From assembly GCF_030816075.1 (NCBI RefSeq), contig NZ_JAUSXO010000001.1:1736001-1800000 (forward strand): a stretch of 64,000 nucleotides of DNA. Reading direction: 5' to 3'. The translations under genes and the position numbers were made by a program. This document shows positions 3,388-40,578 of the stretch, one piece after another; position 1 is the first letter of the stretch, and every line of letters starts with the position of its first letter. This DNA is from Arthrobacter agilis. Lineage in GTDB: Bacteria > Actinomycetota > Actinomycetes > Actinomycetales > Micrococcaceae. The notes below the pieces were generated by a model. The model was not told the origin of the DNA, made no database searches, and saw only the letters and a program-made list of their open reading frames with translations.

Positions 3388-4014
3388 CTACGCGGTCTGC
3401 TCGGTGCCGCCGCCGCCCGCGACGGAGCCGGAGTGCGCGGAGATGTGGTCGAAGAACCCGTAGTCGAGGGCTTCCTGGGCCGTGAACCACTTGTCGCGGT
3501 CGTTGTCCTTCAGGATGGTCTCGACGGTCTGGCCCGTCTGCTCTGCCGTCAGCTCGGCCATCACGCGCTTCATGTGGAGGATCAGCTCCGCCTGGATGCG
3601 GATGTCGGTCGCCGTTCCGCCGATGCCGCCGGAGGGCTGGTGCATCAGGATGCGTGCGTGGGGCGTCGCGTAGCGCTTGCCCTTCGTCCCCGAGGACAGC
3701 AGGAACTGGCCCATGGAGGCGGCGAGGCCCGTGGCGACGGTGACGACGTCGTTGGGGATGAACTGCATGGTGTCGTAGATGGCCATGCCGGCCGTCACCG
3801 ATCCACCGGGCGAGTTGATGTAGAGGAAGATGTCGCGCTCCGGGTCCTCGGCGGACAGCAGGAGCAGCTGGGAGCAGATGGCGTTCGCGTTGTCGTCGCG
3901 GACCTCGGAACCGAGCCAGATGATGCGCTCCTTGAGGAGCCGGTTGTAGATGTACTCGTCACGACCGCCCGCTTCGGGGCCTGCCATGCTCGGGGTGCGT
4001 GGTTCGGTTGCCAT
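3388..4014 (-). CDS. clpP1: ATP-dependent Clp protease proteolytic subunit ClpP1
   Basis: Serine peptidase subunit, 208 residues, normal length. Ser in [11 protein letters not shown], His in ILMHQPSGG, Asp in [17 protein letters not shown] start at 4012-4014 preceded by a GAGAGG ribosome site. It is the first gene of the clpP1-clpP2 unit. A ClgR-type box lies about 110 nt upstream (4126-4139), which suggests the actinobacterial ClgR proteostasis regulon. Confidence 0.96.
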
Positions 4015-4125
4015 TGACGTTGACCTCTCACTCTGGCGGGTGGTGCCTTGGCGGCCTACCCGACCTTTTGTCTCTCCTTGGACACTAACCCGCTGCCCCG
4101 CCGATTTGCTCCCGCTCGGGGAGCT

Positions 4126-4139
4126 GTTCGCTGACGGCG
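4126..4139. promoter_or_regulatory. Candidate ClgR operator upstream of clpP1
   Basis: GTTCGC, five bases, then GCG: an exact match to the ClgR box GTTCGC-N5-GCG reported upstream of clp genes in Streptomyces. It sits between tig and clpP1 at the position expected for an activator of clpP1P2. Matched by eye; no promoter was mapped. Confidence 0.55.
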
Positions 4140-4211
4140 CACGGTGGCCGCGCCGGCCCCGGCGGGCGTCGCAGCGGGGCCGCCCGCACCCGTCCCGGGC
4201 CCTTAACGCGG

Positions 4212-4246
4212 CAGCGGTGCCGCGCCCGGAGGCTGCGGCACCGCTG
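4212..4246 (-). terminator. Hairpin downstream of tig
   Basis: Perfect 12-bp stem (4212-4223 with 4235-4246, 11-nt loop) just after the tig stop on the minus strand. The T-run is weak, so it may be a terminator or an RNA-stability hairpin. Confidence 0.5.
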
Positions 4247-4262
4247 ACTGCACGAACGGGTC

Positions 4263-5792
4263 CTACTCGGCGGCCGGCTTCTTGCGCGGCGCGCGCTTCT
4301 TCTTCGGTGCCTCGGCGGCTGCAGGCTCCTCCGGAGTCTCCGCTGCCGCGGTGTCCTCGGATCCGGCCGTCTCGGCCTCGGCGGCCTGGACGTCCGTGGC
4401 GTCGGCGTCGACGACGTCGGCCTCCGTCGACCGGATGTCCTCGACGGCGTCCCGCTCGGACTCGACGTCGTCGGCCTGGAAGGTCTCGGCCTCGTCGCCC
4501 GCGGGGCGGACGAACTCCGTGAGGTCGACGCTTGCACCGTTGGTGTCGGTGACCGTCGCGTACTCGAGGACCTTGGCGAGGGCCTTGCGGCGGCGGACCT
4601 CTCCGACGATCATCGGGACCTGGCCGCTCTGGTCGAGCATCTGGGCGAACTGGTTCGGTTCCATGCCGTACTGGCCGGCGGTGGAGACGATGTAGTCGAT
4701 CAGCTCGTTCTGGCTGACGCCGACCTCTTCCTTCTCCGCGACCGCGTCGAGGATGACCTCGTTCTGGAAGGCGCGCTCCGTATTGGTGCGCACCTCCGCG
4801 CGGTGCTCCTCGGTGTCGTGGTCCTCGCCGGCGCTGTGGGCGTTCTCGCCGTTGAAGTGCTGCTCCAGCTGCTCCTCGATGACGCTCTCGGGGACGGGCA
4901 CGGCGACGATCTCGACGAGCTTGTCCAGCACCTTGTCGCGTGCCTCGACGCCCTGGTCCATGAGCTTCGACTCGGAGGCCTGCTTCGCCAGGTCGGCGCG
5001 CAGCTCCTCGGCGGTGTCGAACTCGCTGGCGAGCTGGGCGAACTCGTCGTTCACCTCGGGGAGCTCGCGCTCCTTGACGGCCTTCACAGCGACGGTGACC
5101 TGCGCGTCGGCTCCGGCGTGCTCCCCGCCGGCCAGCTTGGTCTCGAAGGTGGCGCTCTCATCCGTGGAGAGCCCGGTAACGGCCTCGTCCATGCCCTCGA
5201 GCATGGTGCCGGAACCGATCTGGTAGGAGAGGTCCTGGGCCGAGTCGACCTCTTCGCCGTCGACGGACGCGGTGAGGTCGATGGTGAGGAAGTCGCCGTC
5301 CTTCGAGGGGCGGTCGACGGTGGTGAGGGTGCCGAAGCGGCCGCGGAGCTCGTCCATGGCCTTCTCGATGTCCTCGTCGGACGCCTCGACGGGCTCGACG
5401 GTGACGTCGATGCCCTTGTAGTCGGGCAGCTCGATCTCGGGGCGGATGTCCAGCTCGACCGTGAAGGTCAGCTGGCCGTCCTTCTTCGCGGGGTCGGGGA
5501 CCTCGGTGATCTCGACCTCGGGGCGGCTCAAGGGACGGATGCCCGTCTCCTGCACGGCGCTCTGGTAGAAGCCGTTCAGGCCGTCGTTGATGGCGGTCTC
5601 GATCACGTAGCCGCGGCCGACCCGCTGGTCGATGAGCTGCTGGGGAACCTTGCCCTTGCGGAAGCCTGGAACCTGGACCTGGGTGGCGATGGTCTTGTAG
5701 GCCTCGTCGATGCTGGGCTTCAGTTCCTCGAAGGGGACCTCGACGTTCAGCTTCACCCGGGTGGGGGAAAGGGTTTCAACAGCGCTCTTCAC
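4263..5792 (-). CDS. tig: Trigger factor (ribosome-associated chaperone, prolyl isomerase)
   Basis: Chaperone that binds at the ribosome exit tunnel; 509 residues. The ribosome-docking signature [12 protein letters not shown] lies near residue 45, an FKBP-type PPIase domain from about 150 to 230, and the helical arms follow. I chose the GTG at 5790-5792 because AGGAG precedes it by about nine bases and the protein then begins with the conserved [12 protein letters not shown] start; the frame is open a further 20 codons upstream. The last 70 or so residues are a disordered acidic tail rich in Glu, Asp and Ala, ending in a Lys/Arg cluster, longer than in the E. coli protein. First gene of the Clp block. 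Confidence 0.96.
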
Positions 5793-27594: not shown

Positions 27595-28695
27595 CTACAG
27601 AGCGACCACACCGTCCGTGAGAGTGGCCGCCCGCTGGTCATCGTCATGCCAGAGATGGGCGTACGTCTGCAGCGTCTCGGTCGCATCCTTGTGCCCTAGG
27701 CGGTGGGCGACCGCGACCGGCGACATGCCCCCGGCGATGAGCTGCGACGCGTGATAGTGGCGGAGCTGGTGGAACCCGTCGCCGATGCCTGGCACCTTCG
27801 CCCGAGCGTCGCGCCAAGCATCCCCGGCGTTCCCCCGGGTGAGCGCACGTCCGCCTGCCGTGAAGACCAGCTCCCCCACCCGTGGCAGGTCCTCGAGCAT
27901 TGCGATCGTCGCGGGGCCGATGCTGATCGTCCGGACACTCGACGCGGTCTCCGGCGGACCCCACGCCGGGCGGCCGGCGTCCCGTGACACCAGCTGCCGG
28001 TCAACGGTCACCGAACCGCGGGACAGGTTCACCCGGTCCCAGGTCAGCCCGCGCATCTCCGAACCGCGCAGCCCGGTCGCCGCCCCGAACACGACGAGCG
28101 GCCTGTAGGGCGCCCATATTGCCTCTACCAGCGCCCGCACCGTATCGGTCGACAACGGGCGCACCCGCTCCACCTCATCCCGTGGGAGTCGCATCCCTAC
28201 GCACGGCGTCGCCCGGATCACGCCGTCGAGGACAGCGGCCTTCATCATGCCCGCGAGGTACGTGTAGGTGAGCTTCACCGTCGACGCCGCCAGCGTCTCC
28301 GACCAGCCGATCACTGCGGCCTGCACATCCGTCCGCGTCACCGACTCCATCCGCTTGTGCCCGAGCACGGGCAGGATGCTCCGGTTCATCCGCCGGGCAA
28401 TCTGCTCCCGGGACGACGCCCGCTGGTGGATCTGCTGCTCCTGCCACCGGGCCGCGTACTCCGAGATGAGCAGCGCCCGCGCCGGCGCCGTGTAGATCCC
28501 GGGGTGGGTTCGAGCATTGACCTCGGTCAGGAACGCCTCCGCAGCGTCCTTCGTCGAGAACGACTTTGACCGCTTGCCGCCCTCATCCCAGTGCACCCGC
28601 CACCGCAGGCCCTGGCCGTACCGCTCCCGGCGGACACGCTTCGGTGGCCCCCCGTCAGGGTTGGCCCGCGTCCACCTGTCCTCGATGCTGGCCAT
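27595..28695 (-). CDS. int: Tyrosine-recombinase integrase
   Basis: 366 residues. An N-terminal arm-binding segment (RWRVHWDEGGKRSKSFSTKDAAEAF) and a SAM-like core-binding domain precede the catalytic domain. Catalytic residues: Arg in ATGLRGSEMRGL, HxLRH in FHQLRHYHAS, LGHKD, and Tyr in QTYAHLWHDD. The ATG at 28693-28695 overlaps the TGA of the upstream ImmA-like gene, so I prefer it to an ATG/GTG nine codons upstream. Lies next to attL, as usual. Appears intact. Confidence 0.95.
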   Translation of the reverse strand: MASIEDRWTRANPDGGPPKRVRRERYGQGLRWRVHWDEGGKRSKSFSTKDAAEAFLTEVNARTHPGIYTAPARALLISEYAARWQEQQIHQRASSREQIARRMNRSILPVLGHKRMESVTRTDVQAAVIGWSETLAASTVKLTYTYLAGMMKAAVLDGVIRATPCVGMRLPRDEVERVRPLSTDTVRALVEAIWAPYRPLVVFGAATGLRGSEMRGLTWDRVNLSRGSVTVDRQLVSRDAGRPAWGPPETASSVRTISIGPATIAMLEDLPRVGELVFTAGGRALTRGNAGDAWRDARAKVPGIGDGFHQLRHYHASQLIAGGMSPVAVAHRLGHKDATETLQTYAHLWHDDDQRAATLTDGVVAL

Positions 28696-29129
28696 CAGCC
28701 ACTCCCCCGTGGGTACCCGCACGGCGTCGTCTCGATCATCTTTCGGATCCCCAATCTCTCCTCATCGCTCAACGACCCGTAGTAGGCGGCGACGTCCGAC
28801 GGCATGACCTCGAGTTCCCGGGCCAGCAGGCCCACCCAGTTGACGGCCTTCAGTGTCGCCGCGACGCGCCCGGCGCTAATCAGCTGCCGCGCTGCCCATG
28901 CCTGCGCTTCCGCTTCCGCTTCCGCTTGCGGAGATGCCTCGGTGTGCCCGAGCGCCGCGTGCCCGAGCATCCTCGCCAGCACCGACCGGCGCTGTACCTT
29001 GCCCATCCCGGGCTTCAATGTCATCGTCTGCGTGGCGTGATCCCACGACCCCCAGCCCTGCTCGACGTTCCCCTCGATTACCTGTGTTCCTAGCTCTACC
29101 GCTGTCCCCATGAGACCCATGAGACCCAT
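28695..29129 (-). CDS. Degenerate ImmA/IrrE-like protein
   Basis: 144 residues. It resembles actinophage ImmA/IrrE metalloproteases: TMTLKPGMGKVQRRSVLARMLGHAALGH, then an Ala/Glu-rich helix with AWAARQLIS. The zinc motif normally reads HELGH; here it is RMLGH, so the first His and the catalytic Glu are missing and peptidase activity is unlikely. The N-terminus has three in-frame ATGs in a repeated GGTCTCATG element, so the start is uncertain. Lies between the repressor and int, the usual place for ImmA-type partners. Confidence 0.7.
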   Translation of the reverse strand: MGLMGLMGTAVELGTQVIEGNVEQGWGSWDHATQTMTLKPGMGKVQRRSVLARMLGHAALGHTEASPQAEAEAEAQAWAARQLISAGRVAATLKAVNWVGLLARELEVMPSDVAAYYGSLSDEERLGIRKMIETTPCGYPRGSG

Positions 29130-30575: not shown

Positions 30576-30970
30576 CCGCGCATTCGGCCACGGCACGGCT
30601 CGCGGAGGCAGCAGCGGCCGCCACTCCCCCGCCTGCGCCCGAAGCAGCTGTGCCTGCCGGAGCGGAACCCGCGGAGCCGCTGTGCTCCCGGAAGCAGCAG
30701 ACGGATCTCGGCAACGCGCTCAAGGCCCTGGGCTACACGACGAAGGACGACATGCTCGGCGTCGTCACCGCGTGGGTCGGCCGCGAGATCAACGGATCGA
30801 AGGACCTTACCGTGTCCGAGGCGAAGCAGCTGACCGACGAGCTCGTCGCCGCCGCGCAGCAGCAAGCCGACGTTGACACCCAGCAGGAGGACGTCGTTGA
30901 CGACGACGGCGTCCTCCCCAAGCCGGTCGACGCGGACACTGACGCTGCATGCCTGGCAGGTACCAACTGA
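30566..30970 (+). CDS. C-terminal domain resembling phage recombination (Erf/RecT-type) proteins, probable remnant
   Basis: 134 residues from the ATG at 30566. An Ala/Pro-rich linker precedes a small helical domain ([45 protein letters not shown]) that I associate with the C-terminal end of actinophage ssDNA-annealing proteins, and an acidic tail. The catalytic N-terminal part is absent, so the gene is probably truncated at the same junction as the GIY-YIG stump. Its TGA overlaps the SSB start (TGATG). Assignment is tentative. Confidence 0.5.
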
Positions 30971-31449
30971 TGGCGGGCGAGACAGTCATCACCGTCATCG
31001 GCAACCTCACTGCCGACCCCGAGCTGCGCTTCACCCCGTCCAGTAGCGCGGTGGCGAACTTCACCATCGCATCCACCCCGCGGACCTTCGACCGGCAGGC
31101 CAACGACTGGAAAGACGGCGAGACGCTGTTCCTCCGGGCCAGCGTGTGGAAGGACGCCGCCGAAAACGTCGCCGAGTCCCTCACGAAGGGGACGCGGGTC
31201 GTCGCCCAGGGGCGCCTCAAGTCGCATTCGTACGACACGAAAGAGGGCGAGAAGCGCACCTTCATGGAACTCGAGGTGGACGAGATCGGCCCGTCCATCC
31301 GCCACGCCTCCGCGAAGGTGACCCGGACACAGGGGCCCGGCACCCGCGGCGGCGTCCAGCCCGCCACCAGCGGGCAGCATTGGGGCCAGCAGCCCGCAGA
31401 CGACCCGTCGGGTGCCGCCCCCACCGACGACGCAGAGCCCCCGTTCTAA
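30970..31449 (+). CDS. ssb: Phage single-stranded DNA-binding protein
   Basis: 159 residues. A typical SSB OB fold: [49 protein letters not shown] and [18 protein letters not shown] Gly/Gln/Pro linker ends in the acidic tip DDAEPPF. ATG at 30970 overlaps the upstream stop. Supports phage DNA replication and recombination. Confidence 0.95.
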
Positions 31450-31772: not shown

Positions 31773-31865
31773 ATGAACACCACCACGACCATCACTAACC
31801 CTGAGATTTGCACCTCCTGCGGATCCCCCATCCGCACCACCGGCGAATGCAGGTGCTCGGATTGA
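31773..31865 (+). CDS. 30-residue four-cysteine (zinc-ribbon-like) peptide
   Basis: ATG at 31773 with GGGAG nine bases upstream; the product contains CTSCGSP and ECRCSD, two Cys pairs able to bind zinc. It starts 17 nt after nrdH and overlaps the start of the PP-loop gene, so it fits a tightly packed operon. Function unknown. Confidence 0.55.
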   Translation: MNTTTTITNPEICTSCGSPIRTTGECRCSD

Positions 31866-32803
31866 GCCGGCAGATTCTCTCGCTGGGCGCCGGGGTGCAG
31901 TCCACCGCACTCCTCCTGCTGTCCGCAATCGGTACGCTCCCGCGGCTCGATGGAGCCATTATCTCGGACACCGGCTGGGAGCCAGCGTCCGTTTACGCCC
32001 ATCTCGACCGCATCGAAAAGGAGATCGCCAAGCCCGCCGGCATACCGATCTACCGAGTTTCCTCCGGGAACATCCGCAATGACGCCCTCGACCCCGTGCA
32101 CCGCTTCGCGTCCATGCCGCTCTATATCAAGAACAAGGACGGCGGGGACGGTATGACCCGGCGCCAGTGCACAAGCGAGTACAAGCTCAAGCCAATCAAG
32201 GAGCAGGTGCGCCGCATCCTCGGCGCCGAGCCACGAGAGGACGGTAAGCCGGGCCGCGTACCCAAGGGCCGCTCCGTCGATCAGTGGATCGGCATCAGCA
32301 CGGACGAGCGCGACCGGGCTCTCGATCAGGACGGCAACCTCAAGACCGGCGATGTCTCCTACTCTCGCAACCGATACCCGCTGCTGGAGCTGGGCATGAG
32401 CCGCGAGCTGTGCGTCCTGCTCCTCACCTCGCAGGGCTTCGGGTCGACTCCGAAGTCGGCGTGCATCGGGTGCCCGTTTCACACCAACCGCCAGTGGCGC
32501 GAGCTGCGCGACAACAACCCCGCGGAGTGGCAGGACGCGGTCGAGTTTGATGCGGCGATCCGTGCGGGCTCCGCGAAGGCCAACGCCCAGGGGCAGCCAC
32601 TGCTGGGGCAGGCATTCCTGCACCGTTCGCGCATGGCCCTCTCGGACGCGCCGATCGACCGCGTCAGCTACCACGAGTGGGCGAGCCGTCAAGGCAATCT
32701 TCTGCACGCCATCGCTGCGGCCGAGTTTGAAGAGTCCCTCGAAGATGACAGCTCCCTCGCCGGGTGCAGCCCCTTTTCCTGCAGGTCAGAAGGTGATGAC
32801 TGA
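31847..32803 (+). CDS. Phage PP-loop ATPase, PAPS-reductase-like
   Basis: 318 residues from the ATG at 31847. The PP-loop is LSLGAGVQSTALLLL; then SDTGWEPASVYAHLDRIE, RRQCTSEYKLKPIKEQVR, QWIGISTDERDRA and PKSACIGCPFHTNRQW, a Cys pair that may bind metal or Fe-S. This is a widespread actinophage family of unknown role, related to PAPS reductase and DndC-type enzymes. No dnd/ssp partner is seen here. Appears intact. Confidence 0.85.
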   Translation: MQVLGLSRQILSLGAGVQSTALLLLSAIGTLPRLDGAIISDTGWEPASVYAHLDRIEKEIAKPAGIPIYRVSSGNIRNDALDPVHRFASMPLYIKNKDGGDGMTRRQCTSEYKLKPIKEQVRRILGAEPREDGKPGRVPKGRSVDQWIGISTDERDRALDQDGNLKTGDVSYSRNRYPLLELGMSRELCVLLLTSQGFGSTPKSACIGCPFHTNRQWRELRDNNPAEWQDAVEFDAAIRAGSAKANAQGQPLLGQAFLHRSRMALSDAPIDRVSYHEWASRQGNLLHAIAAAEFEESLEDDSSLAGCSPFSCRSEGDD

Positions 32804-32832: not shown

Positions 32833-33789
32833 TCAGAACGCCCGCGTCGAGCCGCCCTCGTGCAACTCGAAAGAGCTCGTGTCGCCGACGCGCCACACGG
32901 TAGCGATGTCGTGCTCGGCGAGGAGCTCCAGCAGGTCGGCATTCGGCGCGGCGGGGAGCAGCAGCCGGCAGGGGCGGCCGTCCACGTACCGGCGATAGTC
33001 GAGCAGCTGTCCGAGGCCAGCACGCACGCTGTTCCTGGTGGCGTCCGCTTTGGCTTCGTAGAGGATGCCTTCGGTGGCGTCGTGGATGTCTGTGAAGAGC
33101 GGCATGCTGCTGCCCTTCGGGTACACCTTGAACCGATCGAGCTCGCGGCCCCTGCTCTTCAGGATGGTCTGGAAGGCGTTGACGAGATCCTGCTCGCGCT
33201 TCTTGCCGGTGCCCGCTTCAGTCCCGGCTCGCTCAAACTCTTCGACGGCGTGGTTCTCGAGCGGAACCCGACTCGCACTGCCGGCATCCGTCGGATCTGC
33301 AGCCTTCGAGCTCAAGTCCTCGTCGCGACGGAGGATCTCCCCGACCGGCCGCAGGTGAAACACGAAGACAGTGCGCATGACTCCATCCACGCCGGGGGCA
33401 TCCTCCGTGGAGTACGGGTGGTCGTCGTCGATGGCGAACTCACCCAGGTAGATGCGGTCCTGGCCGTTCCCGACGGCGGCCTTCCCGCTCACACCGAAGA
33501 GGCGGACGGCCTTCCCGTTGAGCTTATGATCCCGCAAGGCGAGATTGCCCTTATGCACCTTCTGCGGACCGATCCGGTCCATACCCGTGTACGAGAACAC
33601 GTCTCCGTCGGCAGACCAACCGTCGAACTCATACCCGTTCTCCCGACCCACCTTCGGGTCAGTGAACAACAGCACGTTCGCCGAGGTGCTCGGCGTCTCC
33701 ATCCCTCCGAACCTCGTGCCGCCGTACATCGCAGCGATCTCTTTGCGCGTGCCCGTCCATCCGACGGGAGTCCCCCACTCAACAGTCAT
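32833..33789 (-). CDS. Putative modification-dependent restriction nuclease: SRA-like domain plus PD-(D/E)XK domain
   Basis: 318 residues. The N-terminal half (about 1-155) reads YGGTRFGGMETPSTS, then YTGMDRIGPQKVHKGNLAL and GKAVRLFGVSG, a pattern I associate with SRA-like (ScoMcrA-type) base-reading domains. The C-terminal half has FTDIHDATEGILYEAKADATR, an Asp-x(n)-Glu-Ala-Lys arrangement typical of PD-(D/E)XK nucleases. It sits on the strand opposite the phage operon with no strong ribosome site. Likely a type IV-like single-gene defence against modified phage DNA. Domain calls are by eye. Confidence 0.6.
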   Translation of the reverse strand: MTVEWGTPVGWTGTRKEIAAMYGGTRFGGMETPSTSANVLLFTDPKVGRENGYEFDGWSADGDVFSYTGMDRIGPQKVHKGNLALRDHKLNGKAVRLFGVSGKAAVGNGQDRIYLGEFAIDDDHPYSTEDAPGVDGVMRTVFVFHLRPVGEILRRDEDLSSKAADPTDAGSASRVPLENHAVEEFERAGTEAGTGKKREQDLVNAFQTILKSRGRELDRFKVYPKGSSMPLFTDIHDATEGILYEAKADATRNSVRAGLGQLLDYRRYVDGRPCRLLLPAAPNADLLELLAEHDIATVWRVGDTSSFELHEGGSTRAF

Positions 33790-33849
33790 AAGAGGAGGCT
33801 AGCTGCACGACCGCTCCTTAGCCGCCGGTCACGAGCGACCCGCCGAAGA

Positions 33850-34578
33850 CTATCGATTCGTTGGGCCCTCGCTTGTGAAGTACGGCGTGATGTGATCCCG
33901 AATCTTCGTCGACCTTTCCTCATAGTGCGAAAGATTTTCGCGCAGCTTGGTCAGCAACTTCTGACGGTCGCCCTCATCACCTACGGGCCACGTCGAAGCG
34001 GCTTCCCTCATCCTCGCGGAAATACCGATGTAATCGATAGCTATGTCATCGGCATCGTTGGGCAGCGGCATGACGTGATGTGCGCTACTAACCATGTGAG
34101 AGAGGCGTACGGATCTCGCCAATACAGAAACCCAACCCCTAAGAGCTTCGCCGAGCGCTCGGGAACCTGGTTCGAACGTCATGCGATAGCGGGCGGATCG
34201 GAGTTGTTGGTCATGAGCATCCAGTTGGCTCAAGTCATCAGCACCGTTGACCACACCCACTACAGCGGAAAGGAAGTCTGCGATGGCAGCTAGCTCCCTT
34301 GCTCGTGAGGATTCAGATCGTTGGTCGGTCAGTTGCCGCTCTAGGGAGTTTCGTTGCTCGTCAAGGGCCCTCTTTGCATCATCCCGTTGCGCAGTTAGGG
34401 CCTTCTCAGACAGGCTGCGTTGCTCCTCAAGTGCTCGCCGGGCCAATTCGGCTTGGTGGAGATTGGTACGCCAGAGAACGAGCAAAGCCACGCCGGCGGC
34501 CCCGATGGCTCCGACGAGCGATCCAATTACACCTGACCAAAGTTGCAGCCATACTTCCGACCCAAGTCCCCAGAACAT
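33850..34578 (-). CDS. Membrane-anchored coiled-coil protein, unknown function
   Basis: 242 residues. One N-terminal membrane helix (residues about 14-36), then a coiled coil of about 60 residues rich in Gln, Arg, Glu and Ala (RALEEQRSLSEKALTAQ repeats), then a helical cytosolic domain of about 130 residues. Base composition is more AT-rich than the neighbouring phage genes. Same layout as 34739-35377. Family not recognised; a superinfection-exclusion or abortive role is speculation from context. Confidence 0.7.
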   Translation of the reverse strand: MFWGLGSEVWLQLWSGVIGSLVGAIGAAGVALLVLWRTNLHQAELARRALEEQRSLSEKALTAQRDDAKRALDEQRNSLERQLTDQRSESSRARELAAIADFLSAVVGVVNGADDLSQLDAHDQQLRSARYRMTFEPGSRALGEALRGWVSVLARSVRLSHMVSSAHHVMPLPNDADDIAIDYIGISARMREAASTWPVGDEGDRQKLLTKLRENLSHYEERSTKIRDHITPYFTSEGPTNR

Positions 34579-34603: not shown

Positions 34604-34735
34604 ATGACTAAGCACGACTACATCATGACCGGCAACAAGCGGGAGCAGGTCAAGCAGGCCGGCAACGCCGTCACCCCGCCGGCCGCCCGCGACCTCATCA
34701 GCATCGGCGCCCAGGCGTTGGGGGTGGGTTCGTGA
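34604..34735 (+). pseudogene. C-terminal remnant of a DNA cytosine-5 methyltransferase
   Basis: 43 codons from an ATG with GGAG upstream. The peptide GNKREQVKQAGNAVTPPAARDL matches motif X at the C-terminal end of C5 DNA methyltransferases (R/K-x-x-Q-x-GNAV). The catalytic PCQ and ENV motifs are absent from the surrounding DNA. It is sandwiched between two minus-strand cargo genes, so the body of the gene was probably replaced by the cargo. It might still be translated as a short peptide. Confidence 0.6.
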
Positions 34736-34738
34736 ACC

Positions 34739-35377
34739 CTACGAGCCTCGTTCAACCCAGTCGGGCCAGTCGTCATTGCCCGTAAGAGCTGCGAGTTCAT
34801 CAAAGCGCGGAAACACAGTAGAGTCGCGCCACTCAGCAGTGCTCTCAGACCAGTTGATGACCAGCCTCCACATCTCGAGGAGAACTAGGCCCCGAACCGA
34901 TCTGGGCATGTCCCGGGTTTCAATCACGAATTTCCGCAACCGATCGAGGAGCCTTCGCTCTTCATGGCTGTTCGACTCCAGTCGTGCGGCCGCAATATCT
35001 CCGAGAACGCGGAAGTCCGTCGGCAGCGGCGTTCTCTTACCGTTGACAGATTGCAGCACGAGGTCTTCACCAAGTTCTCCGACCGATGCGAATATCGCTG
35101 CGAATGCTCTTCGCAGCCGGTCGGCGTGCTCTGCGGCCGACCGGTCCTTCTCAGCTTTGATGCGGGCCTTCTCTGACTTTTCGGCTTGGTCCTCAGCTGA
35201 GCGAGCCGTCCGCACCGCATACACCAAGACGGCAACCGACGCTGCCGCGGAAACCAGAGGAATCCAGATACTGGCAAACCACTGGAACATGCCAGGGTCA
35301 CGCCCTATCTCGTCCACAACTTTGAGAATGGCGCAGGTGATAGGGCCACCGTCTTCGCAAGTGAGTAGTTTTAGCAC
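34739..35377 (-). CDS. Membrane-anchored coiled-coil protein, second of similar design
   Basis: 212 residues from a GTG at 35375-35377; an internal ATG at 35288-35290, just before the membrane helix, is an alternative start. The helix (IWIPLVSAAASVAVLVYAV) is followed by a Lys/Glu/Ala coiled coil (RSAEDQAEKSEKARIKAEKD) and a C-terminal helical domain of about 120 residues. Ends 3 nt from the methyltransferase remnant. Relatively AT-rich. Function unknown. Confidence 0.68.
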   Translation of the reverse strand: MLKLLTCEDGGPITCAILKVVDEIGRDPGMFQWFASIWIPLVSAAASVAVLVYAVRTARSAEDQAEKSEKARIKAEKDRSAAEHADRLRRAFAAIFASVGELGEDLVLQSVNGKRTPLPTDFRVLGDIAAARLESNSHEERRLLDRLRKFVIETRDMPRSVRGLVLLEMWRLVINWSESTAEWRDSTVFPRFDELAALTGNDDWPDWVERGS

Positions 35378-35415: not shown

Positions 35416-35760
35416 ATGGCGTGGTTCAACGCTGACGACAAGATGCATTCCCACCCGAAGGTGCGCGCTGCGGGTCTCGAAGCGACCGGCCTCTGGCTCG
35501 TGTGTGGCACGTACTGCACCGACTACCTCACTGACGGGGTCGTGCCGGGCTGGCACGTCCAGTCCTGGCCGAAAGGGCGACAGCTCGCACAGAGGCTGAT
35601 TACCGCGGGGCTGTGGACGGCTGAGGGCGACCAATACCGGTTCCTGTCCTGGACGGAGTACCAGCGCACGAAAGAACAGGTTGAGAACGAGAAGAGGAAG
35701 GCGCGAGAACGGAAACGGAAATGGCTCGACGGGCAGGAAAAAGACGGAGAAGAACGGTGA
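35416..35760 (+). CDS. Phage replication-associated protein, probably truncated
   Basis: 114 residues. The start WFNADDKMHSHPKVRAAGLEATGLWLVCGTYC resembles actinophage replication-module proteins that are usually over 200 residues. It ends in a charged helix (EKRKARERKRKW). Just downstream, in another frame from a GTG at 35757, a short Lys/Thr stretch (VPKTKAKTK) resembles the usual tail of such proteins, so a frameshift may have split it. Ribosome site is weak. Confidence 0.6.
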   Translation: MAWFNADDKMHSHPKVRAAGLEATGLWLVCGTYCTDYLTDGVVPGWHVQSWPKGRQLAQRLITAGLWTAEGDQYRFLSWTEYQRTKEQVENEKRKARERKRKWLDGQEKDGEER

Positions 35761-39231: not shown

Positions 39232-40578
39232 ATGGGGTACACCAGATCCGACTTCTCGAACCGCAGCGCCAGAGCCGAACGGAAGGCGCTCGAGGGTGAG
39301 GCGCAACCAATCGATTTACCGTACATCTTCTTCTGGGGCTTCATTTTTTCCCTCACCGTCGTCTTCGGACTGATCTGGGTGGCAGCAGCATATGAGACGA
39401 AAGAGTGGATCTTCTGGCGAGCTGAACCGCGCTTGGAGCCTGATCGATTCTTTGCCGTGATCCGAAACGCAGTGACAGCCGCTGCGGCCTTAGGCGTTGG
39501 AGTGACGCTGTTCTTTTCCTATCGCCGACAGCAAACCGCGGAGCGAACCCTTAGGATCAGCGCTGAGGCGCAAAGAACTGCTGCCGAAGCACAGAAGACA
39601 GGCGTCGAAGTACAAAAGACATCAGCTGCAGCGCAAGAGACTGCCAACCGGAATTTCGAACTTGCGAATCGCAACTTTGAACTCGTCAGTCGGAAGCATG
39701 ACTTAGACATCGTAGCGTCACTCCGTGCCCGATACGCGCAATGCGCGGAGCAGCTCGCCAGTAAAGAGACTGCGGTGCGCCTCGCCGGCCTCTATGCCTT
39801 GAGCGCACTAGCAGATGATTGGTTTGATCGCGACGACACTGCCGAGCAACAAACCTGCCTCGACCTCTTCTGTTCAGTCATTCAGATAGAGAGTCAGGGA
39901 GATGCTTATGATCCCGCAAGACCCTCTGCGATTCAGCGCGCCGGCTGGCAGATACTTAGTGCACGATGGCAGAAAGATGTTGAGAAGCGGAAGTACTGGG
40001 GTAATCGTTCACTCAACCTAGAGGGCGTCTCAGCGATACAGCCCATCTCTAATGCCCTCATTTCGAACAACGGAATGTTGATACTTAAGGACGCGACTCT
40101 TGAAGACAACACCTTCTTCTCGGAAGTTGAACTGGATGGCGGCGCGCTTATTCTGCAGGGCGCCAAGGTTAACAGACCCGGGGGATTCTTCTCAATGATG
40201 GACTGCAAGTTTGGGAGTGGGCTGCTATTTTTCGAAACCCTGCATGAGTCTTTTAAGACAATGCACTTCTCAAACTGCAATTTCTCCGGCGCGATGGGCG
40301 CTACTTTTATTCATCATGAAAAGATTTCCTTCACCTTTGACAACTGCGTCTTTTCGGGTGGTCGATTCGGATTACTCTTTCATAGTCTCATAAAATCGCG
40401 AGAAGCGAACAGTCTTCGCGTGAGCTTCATAAATTGCACCTTCGAAGACCAAGTGTTCAACATTGACTACGACGGCGATGAGTCTCATCTAAAAGTCGAC
40501 TTTGACGAGCAGTGCATCTTCTCGGGTAAAGCATTACCCATGAGCAAAAACCCTGCGCAAGCCATCAGGGAAAAGTAG
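39232..40578 (+). CDS. Membrane-anchored coiled-coil protein with pentapeptide-repeat-type C-terminus
   Basis: 448 residues. Two membrane helices (residues about 30-52 and 78-98), then a coiled coil built from repeats (AEAQRTAAEAQKTGVEVQKT), then KHDLDIVASLRARYAQCAEQLASKETAVRLAGLYAL, the helical lead-in typical of membrane pentapeptide-repeat proteins, then about 170 residues of irregular beta-helix-like sequence (FSNCNFSGAM, FDNCVFSGG, FINCTFEDQ). Markedly more AT-rich than its neighbours, so probably recently acquired cargo. Proteins of this layout often neighbour defence genes; function unproven. Confidence 0.72.
   Translation: MGYTRSDFSNRSARAERKALEGEAQPIDLPYIFFWGFIFSLTVVFGLIWVAAAYETKEWIFWRAEPRLEPDRFFAVIRNAVTAAAALGVGVTLFFSYRRQQTAERTLRISAEAQRTAAEAQKTGVEVQKTSAAAQETANRNFELANRNFELVSRKHDLDIVASLRARYAQCAEQLASKETAVRLAGLYALSALADDWFDRDDTAEQQTCLDLFCSVIQIESQGDAYDPARPSAIQRAGWQILSARWQKDVEKRKYWGNRSLNLEGVSAIQPISNALISNNGMLILKDATLEDNTFFSEVELDGGALILQGAKVNRPGGFFSMMDCKFGSGLLFFETLHESFKTMHFSNCNFSGAMGATFIHHEKISFTFDNCVFSGGRFGLLFHSLIKSREANSLRVSFINCTFEDQVFNIDYDGDESHLKVDFDEQCIFSGKALPMSKNPAQAIREK

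Follow-up and report, generated by a model that had tools for sequence, protein, structure and literature searches.

A compact SRA–PD-(D/E)XK protein on an integrated phage element of Arthrobacter agilis, a probable restriction endonuclease for DNA with modified cytosine

Introduction

The restriction enzymes MspJI, AspBHI and LpnPI are fusions with an SRA-like domain in the N-terminal part and a PD-(D/E)XK nuclease in the C-terminal part (PMC6212794, PMC4499157). In the MspJI family the SRA-like domain reads 5-methylcytosine (5mC) and 5-hydroxymethylcytosine (5hmC), and the solved MspJI chains are about 450 residues long; MspJI-type enzymes are tetramers that cut 12/16 nt away from the modified cytosine. 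The PvuRts1I family has the opposite order, nuclease first and SRA second. In the McrA-type enzymes ScoMcrA, TagI and Sco5333, the SRA domain is joined to an HNH nuclease. A further class of predicted type IV enzymes, EVE-PD-(D/E)XK and EVE-HNH, likewise combines a reader of the PUA superfamily with a nuclease (PMC7641849). An SRA-bearing, modification-dependent restriction enzyme is also encoded by a virus: HHPV4I of the archaeal virus HHPV4, which has been proposed to exclude other viruses (PMC10101028). Domain shuffling of this kind is a usual trait of modification-dependent restriction enzymes (PMC7641849, PMC6212794).

Here we analyzed a stretch of 64,000 nucleotides of the A. agilis genome, called the window below, and in it a gene for a 318-aa protein. 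Like the MspJI family, this protein has a predicted SRA reader first (residues 10-150) and a predicted PD-(D/E)XK nuclease second (residues 186-318), the reverse of PvuRts1I. Its reader is of the SRA and not of the EVE kind. Like HHPV4I it is encoded by a virus-derived element, but HHPV4I differs in its m6A specificity through a winged helix, its HNH nuclease and its archaeal virus.

Results

The gene and its family

The gene occupies 32833..33789 on the minus strand, exactly as an earlier note on this DNA had delimited it. Family members were gathered from phage, plasmid, viral-contig and genome searches, and 21 full-length sequences, 31-81% identical to the window protein, were aligned. They came mainly from actinobacteria (Arthrobacter, Pseudarthrobacter, Streptomyces, Nocardiopsis, Clavibacter and Microtetraspora), with one from the myxobacterium Polyangium, and homologues were abundant on chromosomes and plasmids. 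Close copies (64-93% identity) were present in two genomes of the same genus and in viral contigs; those of viral contig L003 and genome G021 are one and the same copy.

Residues Y53, D56, Y67, G69, Q76 and N82 in the N-terminal half and E199, D234, E245, A246, K247, Q261 and Y265 in the C-terminal half were invariant in all 21 sequences. The dN/dS ratio was 0.04-0.18 among close copies, and the family is under purifying selection. The two motifs that the earlier note had pointed out, YTGMDRIGPQKVHKGN (residues 67-82) and the aspartate followed by EAK (D234 and E245-A246-K247), are therefore real and not due to chance.

A predicted SRA domain with a conserved base pocket

When the 318-aa protein was searched as a single sequence against Pfam, PADLOC, NCBIfam and the PDB, no significant match was obtained, and only PHROG 15103 (function unknown) was hit. 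The family profile was needed because the window protein alone reached only E 0.068 for Pfam SAD_SRA, below the Pfam cut-off. SAD_SRA was matched by 15 of the 21 members (best E 3.9e-6), and a relative matched the PADLOC type IV model mREase_IV (E 6e-8). In the PDB, the family profile matched the SRA domains of ScoMcrA (5zmn, E 7.5e-9; 5zmm, E 1.5e-8) and SUVH5 (3q0b, E 0.0059). At the level of sequence profiles these matches identify the N-terminal half as an SRA domain, at about residues 10-150 (33340..33762, minus strand), for which Foldseek returned ScoMcrA, KRYPTONITE and SUVH5.

In the alignment with SUVH5, Tyr416, Asp418 and Tyr428 fell on the invariant residues Y53, D56 and Y67 (33589..33633, minus strand), which are predicted to form the pocket for a flipped base. 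In SUVH5 these residues stack on and hydrogen-bond the flipped 5mC or 5hmC (PMC4740795), and the pocket of TagI contains the same tyrosine-aspartate-tyrosine set (PMC6212794).

A predicted PD-(D/E)XK nuclease domain

The C-terminal half (residues 186-318; 32836..33234, minus strand) is a predicted PD-(D/E)XK nuclease. The combination E-D-EAK-QxxxY is a motif set of PD-(D/E)XK enzymes, and its members E199, D234, E245-A-K247 and Q261-xxx-Y265 (32995..33195, minus strand) form the predicted catalytic set. The model of this domain had pLDDT 91 and pTM 0.84. Its top Foldseek matches in the PDB included McrC, Bax1, Can2, MspJI, EndoMS, BsoBI and PvuRts1I, all of the PD-(D/E)XK fold; the matches were weak, with a best E of only 6e-3 and TM of 0.4-0.56, and most of the top ones were PD-(D/E)XK.

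The AlphaFold model of the whole protein (pLDDT 82.6, pTM 0.65) gave MspJI as the first Foldseek match in the PDB and the best solved match over both domains (4f0p, E 4e-8), followed by ScoMcrA, KRYPTONITE and SUVH5; because the rmsd of the MspJI match was large, the relative placement of the domains in the model is unreliable. Profile searches, invariant residues, AlphaFold with Foldseek, and synteny thus agreed with the proposal of the earlier note that an SRA reader and a PD-(D/E)XK nuclease are combined on an integrated phage element.

Two other assignments were rejected. A weak match to the toxin domain Tox-REase-9 (0.1; best 0.0076 in relatives) was taken as shared nuclease fold. The similarity to the CRISPR nuclease Can2 (E 5e-3) was limited to the nuclease part, and the 318-aa protein had no sign of a CARF domain.

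Comparison with described enzymes and exchange of domains

The pairing of the two domains had been thought possibly new; it is already present in MspJI, AspBHI and LpnPI. The window protein, at 318 residues, is shorter than MspJI, its SRA domain is closer to that of ScoMcrA, and its nuclease motif is E-A-K with QxxxY. No MspJI chain was recovered by the family-profile hmmsearch of the PDB at E<=5, and since no sequence homology was found, we class the family as working like MspJI and not as a member of the MspJI family. ScoMcrA has the SRA domain closest in sequence to the window family, but here PD-(D/E)XK replaces HNH (no HNH match to the window protein or its family in Pfam at E<=1) and the sulfur-binding domain is missing. 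The family is thus a compact, sequence-distinct variant with MspJI-like architecture and a ScoMcrA-type SRA domain. We found no paper on this family in the open literature, though one may exist, and relatives may already be listed by Lutz et al. 2019 in their screen of domain architectures.

Both domains also occurred in other combinations, with partners known from restriction enzymes. The same SRA was joined to HNH nucleases (L014, L017, L027), to an AAA ATPase of McrB-like type (L016) and to NOV_C (L021), and the same nuclease domain lay behind an EVE domain in L007 (E 0.008), with L028 similar by eye. Streptomyces records L051-L053 (about 3545-4888) showed by eye an EVE-SRA-PD-(D/E)XK order, in which two base readers seem to be joined to a single nuclease; the L051 protein had no match in the Pfam scan. 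In L024 (789-2414, minus strand) and L030 (292-1773, plus strand), the EAK nuclease domain followed other N-terminal domains, PUA-like by eye and with no Pfam match.

The integrated element and its cargo slot

The gene is part of an integrated element some 21 kb long (window about 27400-48250). The element carries an integrase (27595..28722, minus strand; phrog_1 E 7e-63, Pfam Phage_integrase E 2e-15), a phage single-strand-binding protein (30949..31449, plus strand; phrog_44 E 2e-47), a PAPS-reductase-like phage gene convergent with the SRA-nuclease gene (31808..32803, plus strand; phrog_424 E 6e-44, SspD-like E 1e-11), and also RusA, an amidase/LysM endolysin and a holin-like ORF. Terminase, portal, capsid and tail genes were not found among the element ORFs examined, and we read the element as either a prophage that has undergone deletion or a satellite of a phage. 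Elsewhere in it, an ORF of 448 aa (39232-40578, plus strand) had third-position G+C clearly lower than its surroundings and no Pfam, PHROG or PADLOC match; we take it as a recent foreign insertion.

The gene had been described as standing alone on the strand opposite the phage operon. It does lie on the minus strand within a plus-strand replication module, but two further minus-strand ORFs adjoin it: one of 242 aa (33850..34578) with a membrane segment and a coiled coil by eye, and one of 212 aa (34739..35377), a relative of which was found beside the SRA-nuclease gene in G021. The right border of this cargo slot is a phage replication initiator (35416..35760, plus strand; phrog_2447 E 2e-37). 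The same slot, between the Ssb/NrdH/PAPS-reductase genes and the initiator and with the gene on the opposite strand, was found in G007, G021 and L001, so that four related elements or more share this conserved slot. We rejected the idea that the nuclease and the PAPS-reductase gene function as a pair, for G021 and L001 gave no PAPS-reductase match yet keep the nuclease.

A related initiator was present in 19 viral contigs, and only two of these had the SRA-nuclease gene (L064, the same as L001, and L068, the same as G021). In L062, L063, L066, L073/L074 and L079, a C5-cytosine methyltransferase (PF00145) was placed just upstream of the initiator, and other contigs of this set had an N6/N4 methyltransferase. 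Relatives of ORF 33850-34578 were seen on the minus strand between the C5-methyltransferase and the initiator in L062, L066, L073 and L074.

Between the two additional cargo ORFs of the window we found a remnant of a C5-cytosine methyltransferase (34619..34735, plus strand), 79% identical (E 2e-12) to the C-terminus of the intact enzyme of L063, which matches PF00145. Because only its last 39 codons remain, this methyltransferase has been lost from the window element, and the SRA-nuclease gene and ORF 33850-34578 occupy the place where its body would be. Apart from this remnant, no methyltransferase stands beside the nuclease gene. PF00145 was likewise absent from the available records of the carrier phage contigs L001 and L003 and of phage Sidious.

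The host chromosome has one C5-methyltransferase, about 59% identical to that of L062 over most of its length. It lies in an apparent second prophage of the host (about 1921651-1923638; L093 6652-8639), where it is followed by an N6/N4 methyltransferase. This C5-methyltransferase is a relative of the enzyme whose remnant adjoins the SRA-nuclease gene, and the host cell may itself make 5mC when the second prophage is active. The finding may be taken as a caveat, or as a hint that the two prophages are in conflict.

A putative leaderless promoter

A -10-like hexamer, TAGCCT (33796..33801, minus strand), was found 6 nt before the start codon, and TAGCCT-N6-ATG had its only perfect match in the window here. 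The G021 copy had the same hexamer, the G007 and L033 copies had similar ones, and ORF 33850-34578 begins with TAGTCT-N6-ATG. Together with the absence of a Shine-Dalgarno sequence, the hexamer suggests a leaderless transcript from a probable promoter of its own, by which expression of the SRA-nuclease gene could be independent of the phage operon.

C5-methyltransferases are scarce in carrier genomes

The association between the family and methyltransferases was examined in 199 Streptomyces genomes, with carrier and non-carrier groups compiled by hand from search output. A strong C5-methyltransferase, defined as PF00145 at E<1e-25 by a cut chosen after the data were seen, was present in 4 of the 25 genomes whose copy is full-length and intact, against 106 of the 150 that lack the family altogether (Fisher p 3e-7). 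With PF00145 at any E, the counts were 13/25 and 129/150 (p 3e-4). The control, the N6-methyltransferase family PF02384, was found in 19/25 and 125/150 genomes (p 0.40).

Correction for common descent was based on an rpoB tree, a single gene, of 79 of the 199 genomes. Pagel's test for C5-methyltransferases gave p 0.003 with intact and dead copies taken together; restricted to intact copies it was borderline (p 0.049), and the N6 control gave 0.45. Counts of independent pairs were 12:1 (p 0.003) and 10:1 (p 0.012) for the same two sets, and 4:0 (p 0.125) for the N6 control, leaning in the same direction. In the window's own genus, carriers (3 of 39 genomes) were too few for the test.

Relatives that have lost the EAK residues were observed in Streptomyces and Kitasatospora (L009-L013; L127, L129, L136-L141); all those checked except L140 keep the SRA pocket, and they are possibly readers without nuclease. 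They failed as a clean negative control: a strong C5-methyltransferase was present in none of 6 genomes with nuclease-dead copies, so the association is seen with active and inactive enzymes alike. That carriers are depleted of C5-methyltransferases, and not clearly of N6-methyltransferases, speaks for 5mC being among the targets.

Discussion

We propose, with a probability of roughly 0.7, that the 318-aa protein is prophage cargo: a modification-dependent restriction endonuclease, encoded by one gene and probably independent of NTP, which flips 5mC or 5hmC, cuts at a distance and restricts C5-modified phages from the lysogen. The SRA domain would flip the modified cytosine into the pocket formed by Y53, D56 and Y67. 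The DNA would be cut some distance away by the C-terminal domain with its E-D-EAK-QxxxY set, the enzyme probably acting as a dimer or higher oligomer. Its own leaderless promoter would probably drive expression in the lysogen. Incoming or induced phages with cytosine-C5 modification would thereby be restricted, for example sister phages whose version of this slot holds a C5-methyltransferase. A lysogen-expressed, 5mC/5hmC-dependent endonuclease against modified phages is the most likely identity, and the protection of the lysogen against such phages that the earlier note had raised is plausible, with indirect support from the scarcity of C5-methyltransferase genes in carriers and from the methyltransferase remnant nearby.

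An enzyme of the same class might have another target than plain 5mC, such as 5hmC, a bulkier phage cytosine modification or another modified base. The targets of SRA enzymes do differ: PvuRts1I prefers 5hmC and glucosylated 5hmC, and ScoMcrA prefers 5hmC (PMC6212794, PMC7461809), while in HHPV4I m6A is read by something other than the SRA domain (PMC10101028). However, pocket residues of the UHRF/SUVH5 type suit both 5mC and 5hmC, and the carriers were depleted of C5- and not clearly of N6-methyltransferases, and we consider a different target rather unlikely.

A role for the phage itself, either in the lytic cycle by degrading the DNA of the host or of competitors, or as a superinfection factor independent of base modification, would fit the location of the gene on a prophage next to replication genes, and the relative in phage Sidious sits within the plus-strand early operon. 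In the Arthrobacter elements, however, the gene lies opposite the operon strand with its own start signal, chromosomal and plasmid homologues are abundant and the modified-base pocket is invariant, which makes such a role very improbable. Still harder to credit is that the protein has no catalytic activity and serves to read or regulate modified DNA: several Streptomyces relatives have indeed lost the EAK residues with the SRA pocket kept, but in the window copy and in all 21 aligned members the catalytic residues are intact, under purifying selection.

Returning to the restriction endonuclease as the preferred reading, the history of the slot may be a case of exchange. Tentatively, and at somewhat less than even odds, one slot within one Arthrobacter phage family would alternate between making C5-cytosine methylation and destroying DNA that bears it, an ancestral C5-methyltransferase having been lost when the SRA-nuclease cargo replaced it. 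Phages that methylate and phages that hunt methylation would then be rivals in shared hosts, even where both are prophages of a single chromosome.

What stands out is the apparent exchange of methyltransferase for nuclease within a single phage slot, together with the rarity of C5-methyltransferases across the genomes of carriers. Comparing the two kinds of methyltransferase gene in carriers, of which C5 was depleted and N6 not clearly so, offers a general route to infer the targets of uncharacterized modification-dependent enzymes. The protein itself is a compact candidate tool for mapping 5mC and 5hmC. It would be a bacteriophage-borne SRA-PD-(D/E)XK restriction enzyme with roughly two thirds of the length of MspJI, and its family is widespread in actinobacteria, with no characterized member that we could find. 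It makes a directly testable case of phage-against-phage conflict over cytosine methylation.
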